A stretch of DNA of 64,000 nt, taken from assembly GCF_037482165.1 (NCBI RefSeq), contig NZ_CP148048.1, positions 124,001 to 188,000 of the forward strand. Reading direction: 5' to 3'. The translations under genes and the position numbers were made by a program. This stretch comes from Parvimonas micra. GTDB taxonomy: Bacteria > Bacillota > Clostridia > Tissierellales > Peptoniphilaceae. Positions 2,258 to 3,816 of the stretch are shown piece by piece (position 1 is the first letter of the stretch; every line of letters begins with the position of its first letter). The notes beneath the pieces are model-generated. The model saw only the letters and a list, made by a program, of their open reading frames with translations. It did not search any database and had not been told where the DNA came from.

Positions 2258-2286
2258 TTGACAAAAGATTTATTTGCTGTTATTAT
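2258..2286 (+). promoter_or_regulatory. Sigma-A promoter of the riboswitch/purine permease transcript
   Basis: TTGACA (2258-2263), 17-base spacer, TATTAT (2281-2286). Initiation would fall near 2293, just before the riboswitch aptamer. Confidence 0.85.
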
Positions 2287-2296
2287 ATTGATGTGA

Positions 2297-2400
2297 TATT
2301 GATAACTCAAAGAGAAAGTGCACATAGGGTTCCGAAGATTTTTCTTGCAGGTCCAAGCTGTGCAGGTGCTATGCACTACACCTAAGGGAGAAAAGCCCAG
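2297..2400 (+). promoter_or_regulatory. ykkC-family riboswitch, probably PRPP-sensing type
   Basis: The leader has the signature blocks of ykkC-class aptamers in order: GAAAGTG followed by TAGGGTTCCG (near 2310-2334), AGGTCC (near 2349), and the 3' block ACACC-TAAGGGAGAAAAGCCC (ending 2398). The 5' block and the purine-permease target fit the PRPP subtype, which commonly controls purine genes in Firmicutes; guanidine-I and (p)ppGpp subtypes share most of this scaffold. The terminal GCCC of the aptamer is also the first strand of the terminator at 2395-2446, so ligand-stabilised folding should block termination, giving an ON switch. Subtype is inferred from consensus memory and gene context. 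Confidence 0.75.
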
Positions 2401-2446
2401 AAGGTAGGTTTCGCTTGAAGCCTACTTTTTGGGCGTTTATTTTTTA
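2395..2446 (+). terminator. Riboswitch-controlled terminator
   Basis: GCCCAGAA (2395-2402) pairs with TTTTTGGGC (ending 2434) and an inner GTAGG/CCTAC stem, followed by a T-rich run. The first strand overlaps the conserved 3' end of the aptamer. Confidence 0.8.
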
Positions 2447-2505: not shown

Positions 2506-3816
2506 ATGAGCACGTTTTTTGAAAATTTTTTCAAACTCAAGGAACACAAAACAACTGTTAGAACAGAGATTTTAGCAGGTATTACCACATTTATGACTAT
2601 GGCGTACATATTAGTTGTAAATCCTACAATTTTATCCGAGGCAGGAATGGATAAAGGAGCAGTATTTACAACAACAGCAATCGCATCATTCATAGGAACA
2701 GTTATAATGGCACTACTTGCAAATTATCCTTTTGCATTAGCTCCAGGTATGGGCTTAAATGCTTACTTTGCTTATACTATAGTAATTGGTAAAGGATACA
2801 GTTGGCAATTTGCTTTAACTGCTGTTTTATTAGAGGGGATTGTATTTTTAATTTTAACTTTTACAAAAGTTAGAGAAATGATTGTAAATGCTATGCCATA
2901 TTCACTTAAACAAGCAGTAAGCGCAGGAATTGGTATTTTTATAGCATTTTTAGGATTGTATCAAGCTGGACTTGTTAAACAAGGAAAGGGAATACCTCTT
3001 GACTTAGGAACAATTACAAGTACTACTTCATTAATTACAATTTTTGGTATTTTATTTACTATTTTCTTACTTGTAAAAAAAGTTCCAGGTGCAATTCTAT
3101 TTGGGATGTTAGCCACTACAGCAGTGTCAATAATTTGTGGAGTTTCTGAACTTCCAAAGGCAATTATAGGTAAGCCATCAAGCATAGCTCCTATATTTAT
3201 GAAATTTGATTTTAGCAAAGTTTTATCAACTGAAATGTTTGTAGCTCTTTTTGCTTTTTTATTTGTTGACTTATTCGACACAGTAGGAACTTTAGTAGGG
3301 GTTGCATCAAAAGCTGATATGTTAGACAAAGATGGAAATTTACCAAAAGCAAGACAAGCTCTTTTTGCAGATGCTATAGGAACAACTGCTGGAGCAATGT
3401 TAGGAACTTCAACGGTAACTACATTTGTTGAAAGTGCAGCGGGAGTTGCAGAAGGCGGAAGGACAGGACTTACTTCAATAGTTACAGCTATTCTTTTCTT
3501 ATTGGCTTTGATTTTCCAACCTATTTTTGCAGTAATTCCTACTTATGCAACATCTTCTGCATTAATTGTAGTTGGATTATTTATGATTACTGGAATAAAG
3601 AAAATTGATTTTGAGGATTATACAGAAGCATTGCCTGCATTTTTAACTATTATTATGATGCCTCTATCATATTCAATAGCAAATGGAATTGTTTTTGGTA
3701 TAGTTTCTTATGCTGTATTAAAATTAATCTCAGGTAGAGGAAAGGAAGTTTCCCCGGTAGTATATATTTTAGCTTTACTATTCATATTAAAATTTGTAGC
3801 AGAAGCATTTATGTAA
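2506..3816 (+). CDS. NCS2-family purine permease (AzgA/PbuG type)
   Basis: 436-residue polytopic membrane protein with roughly 12-14 hydrophobic segments. Hallmarks of the AzgA/PbuG hypoxanthine-guanine-adenine branch are visible: the N-terminal RTEILAGITTFMTMAYI, the GMGLNAYFA motif near residue 84, FVDLFDTVGTLVG near 253 and GTSTVTTFVES near 300. It probably imports nucleobases by proton symport. ATG 2506 follows AGGAGG at the usual distance. The upstream ykkC-class riboswitch suggests uptake is tuned to purine-nucleotide precursor status, which supports a purine rather than xanthine/uracil substrate. A monocistronic unit, closed by a terminator. Confidence 0.92.
   Translation: MSTFFENFFKLKEHKTTVRTEILAGITTFMTMAYILVVNPTILSEAGMDKGAVFTTTAIASFIGTVIMALLANYPFALAPGMGLNAYFAYTIVIGKGYSWQFALTAVLLEGIVFLILTFTKVREMIVNAMPYSLKQAVSAGIGIFIAFLGLYQAGLVKQGKGIPLDLGTITSTTSLITIFGILFTIFLLVKKVPGAILFGMLATTAVSIICGVSELPKAIIGKPSSIAPIFMKFDFSKVLSTEMFVALFAFLFVDLFDTVGTLVGVASKADMLDKDGNLPKARQALFADAIGTTAGAMLGTSTVTTFVESAAGVAEGGRTGLTSIVTAILFLLALIFQPIFAVIPTYATSSALIVVGLFMITGIKKIDFEDYTEALPAFLTIIMMPLSYSIANGIVFGIVSYAVLKLISGRGKEVSPVVYILALLFILKFVAEAFM

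Follow-up and report, generated by a model that had tools for sequence, protein, structure and literature searches.

A putative PRPP riboswitch in the leader of a purine permease gene of Parvimonas micra

The window analysed here is a stretch of 64,000 nucleotides from Parvimonas micra (NZ_CP148048.1, positions 124,001 to 188,000), and coordinates given without a contig are counted from its first letter. Positions 2258–2446 read as a complete transcriptional riboswitch leader ahead of a purine permease gene (2506–3816). Immediately upstream of the riboswitch, positions 1546–2160 encode a SAP_new25 domain protein (PF18953). The features of the leader and its gene are as follows.

2258–2286, + strand: promoter, with −35 element TTGACA (2258–2263), a 17-nt spacer and −10 element TATTAT (2281–2286); 11 of 12 positions match the consensus
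2307–2412, + strand: putative ykkC subtype 2b (PRPP-type) aptamer with P0, found with RF00442 and with models R1 and R2
2314–2317, + strand: 5′ strand of P0, GAAA, pairing with UUUC at 2409–2412; A5 is 2317 and G6 is 2318 in T. mathranii numbering
2319–2364, + strand: P1 (2319–2324 with 2359–2364), enclosing P1a and P1b; A46 at 2355, G48 and C49 at 2357–2358
2366–2376, + strand: P2 hairpin (2366–2369 with 2373–2376)
2378–2408, + strand: P3 and the binding pocket, placed by published positions; A74-C75-A76-C77-C78 at 2378–2382, GGG/CCC helix at 2386–2388/2396–2398
2399–2401 and 2406–2408, + strand: 3′ side of P3 and the pocket, with A95 at 2399, G96 at 2400, A97 at 2401 and A103-G104-G105 at 2406–2408
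2395–2445, + strand: intrinsic terminator, an 18-bp stem-loop (2395–2434) followed by a U-rich tract; the 3′ strands of P3 and P0 lie within the 5′ arm of the stem
2496–2501, + strand: Shine–Dalgarno element AGGAGG, read directly from the sequence
2506–3816, + strand: AzgA-type (NCS2) purine nucleobase permease of 436 aa, the putative regulated gene (PF00860, E = 2.6e-49)

Judging from the spacing of the promoter, transcription would start near 2293; the permease begins with the ATG at 2506. The leader (2302–2446) folds more stably than all of 200 dinucleotide shuffles (z = −3.9), and a terminator scan returned two sites in a region of 371 bases, compared with 0.1 expected in shuffles. The first-pass annotation had described promoter, aptamer blocks and terminator as all in place, and each of them was recovered. 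The GCCC that it had placed in both the aptamer 3′ end and the terminator lies at 2395–2398, and positions 2399–2412 are likewise common to both.

The target is a purine permease, as had been proposed, insofar as the first gene behind the switch encodes a PF00860 permease. The only relatives with solved structures found by sequence are AZG1 (E = 5e-75) and AZG2 (E = 6.6e-62), both adenine/guanine permeases, and a search of the 436-aa protein against NCBIfam returned no match. The genome contains one other strong RF00442 match, at C1:693917–694009 (55.8 bits), directly before purC-purE-purM; here purC and purE were assigned by NCBIfam (purC below cut-off), and purM was read from the sequence, where there is an AIRS_C match. 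A third match in the genome (L003, E = 9.6) was taken as chance. The aptamer in the window is 73% identical to the purC copy of its own genome, 80% to the permease copy of the sixth congener and 74.5% to the best match outside the genus, on a scale where self-comparison reads 95% because the lengths differ. An origin by duplication of the purC copy within the genus was considered; the terminator loop, which recurs in the purC-linked leaders there, is too small a feature to decide it.

At Rfam's own gathering thresholds, the whole window returned zero matches. Under an E-value threshold, the guanidine-I model RF00442 matches 2313–2405 (+) at 50.5 bits (E = 2.8e-8; gathering score 63), and the same 50.5 bits were obtained for this copy in a search of the whole genome. 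RF00442 matches every one of the six genomes of the genus and exceeds the cut-off in none, and a score below gathering is what would be expected of a ykkC RNA that is not of the guanidine class. The first-pass annotation had named a covariance score below threshold as grounds for giving up the ykkC assignment. Taken literally, that is the score obtained; but the only ykkC model to match is the one for guanidine-I, and a model of the subtype, introduced below, does separate the classes. Matches of the window to miRNA, plastid and sRNA families were sub-threshold hairpin matches and were discarded. A tandem guanine aptamer was also rejected, there being no gathering match in the window and RF00167 being confined, within the genus, to one of six genomes, where it belongs to a different permease locus.

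The architecture was followed in an alignment of 46 distinct aptamers from the family and genus, with 93 rows from the matches listed for the order forming a second set (family, order and class are the kinship ranks used here and may differ from those of NCBI). Standard pairs occupy 92.7% of cells in the 46-row alignment, and 20 of the 30 pairs change on both sides, which none of 500 shuffles equals; when the alignment is slid by 1–3 columns, pairing drops to 27–46%. The weakest helix, formed by the end of P1a and P1b (columns 26–32 with 40–48), has 78% of its cells paired. The P0 add-on, consisting of GAAAG (2314–2318) and AGGUUUC (2406–2412), is paired in 96.7% of cells of the 46 sequences, with two of its four pairs varying on both sides, and A5, G6, A103, G104 and G105 are invariant in 46/46 and 93/93 rows. 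The PRPP-type aptamer is single, not tandem.

According to the passages of PMC6031431 on ligand recognition, the PRPP aptamer has C49 where guanidine-I has A; G96 marks the PRPP class and is another base, or missing, in ppGpp aptamers; and G96A alone converts a PRPP aptamer to ppGpp, a switch of approximately 40,000-fold. Most of the conserved positions compared here are tied to ligand contact in the same passages. Numbering of the 3′ half was fixed by the T. mathranii primers printed in that paper, together with the pairing of P3. In this register the window has C49 (2358), the pocket bases C75, C77 and C78 (2379, 2381 and 2382) and G96 (2400). Positions 5, 6, 48, 74–78, 96 and 103–105 are identical in all 46 rows and in all 93 rows of the second set, and position 49 is C in 46/46 and 90/93, respectively. 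The key positions favour PRPP over ppGpp and guanidine as the likely ligand, in line with the earlier proposal of a ykkC-class RNA responding to PRPP or a nucleotide alarmone. A G-to-A difference in the window was considered as the G96A ppGpp switch and rejected, since the primer register of PMC6031431 places it at position 97.

The letter in column 96 was abandoned as a separator of ppGpp-like controls, and spacing was used instead: several of these controls also show G in that column, because their shorter stretch slips by one in automatic alignment. The distance from the CCC of P3 to A103 is eight bases in 37 of 46 rows and in 88 of 93 rows of the second set. It is seven bases in the remaining rows, all of which come from the window's genus, purC- and permease-linked alike, and six (read by eye) in ppGpp-like RNAs linked to acetolactate synthase. 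Between the same CCC and the GG that pairs with C77–C78 there are four letters in the window (AGAA) and in PRPP-type rows, compared with three (GGC) in the acetolactate-synthase-linked RNAs; the three-letter gap fits a missing position 96. As the four-letter gap is kept in the window, the base missing in the genus would be the one at about 100/101, described in PMC6031431 as a weakly conserved contact in the structure, and not the one at 96.

Two covariance models were built for the subtype. Model R1 was made from the 46 aptamers, the window's own sequence included, and its score of 100.7 bits for the window proves little because that sequence was in the training set. Model R2 left the genus out and drew on 44 matches from the family's other genera; these were aligned to the R1 structure, so that only the sequences are independent. 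R2 finds 2307–2412 at 96.3 bits (E = 2.9e-25), and it gives the purC copies of the genus 101–105 bits and the other permease copies 93–97 bits. Its controls, labelled from sequence and downstream genes and not from a database (some ppGpp-like loci having no recognisable downstream gene), were seven ppGpp-like RNAs, at 50.5–65.8 bits, and three guanidine-I RNAs of the family, at 32.1–42.2 bits; the NDP class (2c) and orphan 2d lie outside this comparison. We read the element as a ykkC subtype 2b PRPP riboswitch that would act as a transcriptional ON switch for the purine permease, with a probability of about 0.9; PRPP binding and regulation are predicted from the sequence features described above.

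PRPP and ppGpp aptamers are close enough for a single G96A to turn one into the other, and the 3′ strand, a base shorter in this genus than in other PRPP-type RNAs, comes nearer to the length of the ppGpp-like form. That the leader is instead a ppGpp riboswitch (subtype 2a), through which the starvation alarmone would turn on base import, is nevertheless highly unlikely. G96 is present in register, purC and permease copies do not differ in length within the genus, and the seven ppGpp-like RNAs reach 50–66 bits with R2 against 96 for the window. The ppGpp class has the same scaffold with P0, but is described as having no conserved G96 and as serving amino-acid biosynthesis genes. There is next to no chance that the element is a guanidine-I riboswitch with a mis-assigned target, even though the one matching Rfam ykkC model bears that name and the scaffold is the same. 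Apart from the score under gathering, the base at 49 is C and not A, the pocket has CC at 77–78 where guanidine-I has GG, and P0, which that class lacks, is present; guanidine-I RNAs also have other targets, and the three from the family, with 32–42 bits under R2, precede a different gene. NDP riboswitches (2c) are linked to NUDIX and HAD genes; the target here is a permease. With the PRPP riboswitch 2b (PMC5912903; structure by Knappenberger et al. 2018, PMC6031431), as described in passages of both papers, the window copy shares the fold with P0, the twelve positions, G96, C49, the overlap of the terminator with the aptamer 3′ end, the singlet form and the phylum. It differs in being one base shorter in the 3′ strand and in its target, a purine permease in place of the de novo purine enzymes reported in PMC5912903.

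Two pocket-side differences from the published aptamer, A46 (2355) and A97 (2401), hint at a PRPP-derived variant with a changed ligand, for example a nucleotide or nucleobase derivative. Both are found in the permease copies of five of the six genomes and are absent from the purC copies of those five. The permease copy of the sixth congener, however, has the usual G46 and G97, and A46, A97 or both are also present in purC-linked switches, such as L157. Across the 46 rows, A46 is found in 13 and A97 in 20, mostly linked to purC or purE, and the combinations at positions 46 and 97 are G/G (20), A/A (10), G/A (10), A/G (3) and T/G (3). Among the matches listed in the second set, A46 is the commoner base in rows without a permease (47 of 74). 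Altered specificity was dropped as the lead reading because both positions are also variable in switches linked to purC or purE, and neither change is present in the sixth congener's permease copy. A variant with a changed ligand is very improbable; judged from the aligned sequences, A46 and A97 are ordinary variation.

Published PRPP switches turn expression on by antitermination, according to the passages on gene control in PMC5912903, and the leader has the corresponding overlap of terminator and aptamer. The terminator stem alone has a free energy of −28.8 kcal/mol; the minimum for the leader, which is the terminator form, is −50.5 kcal/mol, and −31.5 kcal/mol is obtained when the aptamer pairs are imposed. 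Since the terminator form is the energy minimum, control would have to be kinetic and co-transcriptional. Folding of 95 bases from the P3 3′ strand was extended to 133 distinct aptamers (stretches with fewer than 60 remaining bases were left out, and the identical L002 stood in for the window's aptamer). In all 133 the P3 3′ strand is paired with an arm further downstream, and in 132 the ten bases that follow include five or more T. The thermodynamic dominance of the terminator form is also what an aptamer relic, or a constitutive leader with no regulatory function, might show. Such a leader is extremely improbable: pocket, P0, terminator and promoter are all intact, and the link to the permease is kept throughout the six genomes of the genus, even in the one that lacks PurC, PurM and PurL.

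For the PRPP riboswitch, the following cycle is proposed. Without PRPP, the nascent leader would form the terminator at 2395–2434, and RNA polymerase would stop before reaching the permease gene. A scarcity of purine bases would reduce the use of PRPP by salvage (and by PurF) and let it accumulate. Binding of PRPP to the folded aptamer would hold P3 and P0; as these contain the 5′ arm of the terminator, the terminator could not form and the permease would be made. Import would rise when purines run short, and hypoxanthine-guanine phosphoribosyltransferase would join the imported bases to PRPP, whereupon PRPP would fall and the loop would close. PRPP binding, antitermination, this physiological loop and the exact base imported are all deduced in this scheme.

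Each of the six genomes of the genus carries the permease-linked copy, and five carry the purC-linked one. In the family, 50 of 130 genomes contain RF00442 matches. Among 56 loci retrieved, fifty aptamers were recognised by letter pattern: 34 lie before purC, nine before purE (one assigned by eye), six before a permease and one before a transposase-like frame, and all six that are permease-linked belong to the window's genus. The six loci that did not match the pattern comprise one chance match, three guanidine-I RNAs and two aptamers later found by model. The transposase-like frame lies directly behind the PRPP-type switch L027 of one family member. In several genomes of the family (L157, L158, L159, L160 and L030), two PRPP-type aptamers stand about 840 bases apart, before purC and behind it in the pur cluster, as if segments were gated successively.

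In the order, R1 matches 131 of 249 genomes. Among the matches listed, 93 were aligned (five from the genus, 88 from the rest), and a permease relative comes first behind 19 of them, four in the genus and 15 outside it. In ten of these 15, also counted among the matches listed, the permease is followed by purC, purL or purE (purL being assigned by a loose letter pattern, with an NCBIfam check on three examples); the other five run into a different frame, a further permease or the end of the stretch. At the level of class, 35 of 391 genomes are matched, some of them again from the family and order, and L292 and L294, which lie outside the order and score 94–96 bits, precede permeases that appear AzgA-like by eye. 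The first-pass annotation had seen a single purine permease as an unusual target for such an RNA: the link to a permease stands, and the idea of a lone exception gives way to an arrangement that recurs across the order and outside it. The kind of riboswitch is already known, and the permease is a less familiar target found in many related bacteria.

One congener, G004 (99% complete, in 70 contigs), lacks PurC, which the five other congeners have, although an assembly gap is possible. Each of the others has three AIRS_C proteins but G004 a single one, and consequently neither PurM nor PurL, and it has one GARS_N protein compared with two in the others; several de novo purine genes are missing together. 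This genome keeps a PRPP-type switch (L008), with G46 and G97, on the permease only, and it has the same two HGPRTase proteins; hypoxanthine-guanine phosphoribosyltransferase scores above cut-off in every genome of the genus. Outside the pur operon, all six genomes encode a further GARS_N (PurD-like) protein (G000:C1:61285–61581), and this includes the genome without an operon copy. Alone in the genus, G004 also carries a guanine-class riboswitch (RF00167, 71.8 bits, C61:39790–39887, L312), which precedes another PF00860 permease and a phosphoribosyltransferase-like frame.

Control of purine import by PRPP is familiar from Bacillus subtilis, where, as passages of PMC8789054 set out, PurR responds to PRPP and the guanine/hypoxanthine permease genes pbuG and pbuO are induced by PRPP together with the pur operon. 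There, however, the regulator is a protein repressor acting at DNA, whereas here it is a putative RNA aptamer: PRPP control of import known through a protein is probably exerted by RNA in this genus. No PurR of the B. subtilis family scored above cut-off in the six genomes of the genus, and sub-threshold matches fall mainly on the phosphoribosyltransferase part.

In its passages on gene association, PMC5912903 (Sherlock et al. 2018) describes PRPP switches in singlet and in tandem form, linked to codA and to genes of de novo purine synthesis, and calls only purine-pathway genes commonly associated with the class. The word 'permease' is absent from its main text; an earlier listing in the supplementary alignments is possible. 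The relevant passages of PMC7266159 and PMC9481103 name no permease target for the PRPP class. Literature searches for PRPP riboswitches together with a purine permease found no paper, and among the papers listed for ykkC and permease none was recognisably on this link; in the literature searched, purine import seems not to have been described as a branch of the PRPP riboswitch regulon. With a single model and gathering score, Rfam conceals the ykkC classes that do not bind guanidine.

If the assignment is true, control by PRPP riboswitches extends from the synthesis of purines to their import, as control by the protein PurR does in Bacillus. The evidence leans slightly towards a broader proposal, in which a PRPP-sensing RNA serves across the Tissierellales as the main switch of the whole purine-acquisition regulon, import and synthesis together, in place of PurR. 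Where a lineage lacks the de novo genes tested, the switch would then be kept on the permease alone, as a sensor of purine hunger in a likely purine auxotroph. In G004, nature would provide a way of asking what PRPP signals to a cell that is probably limited to salvage.
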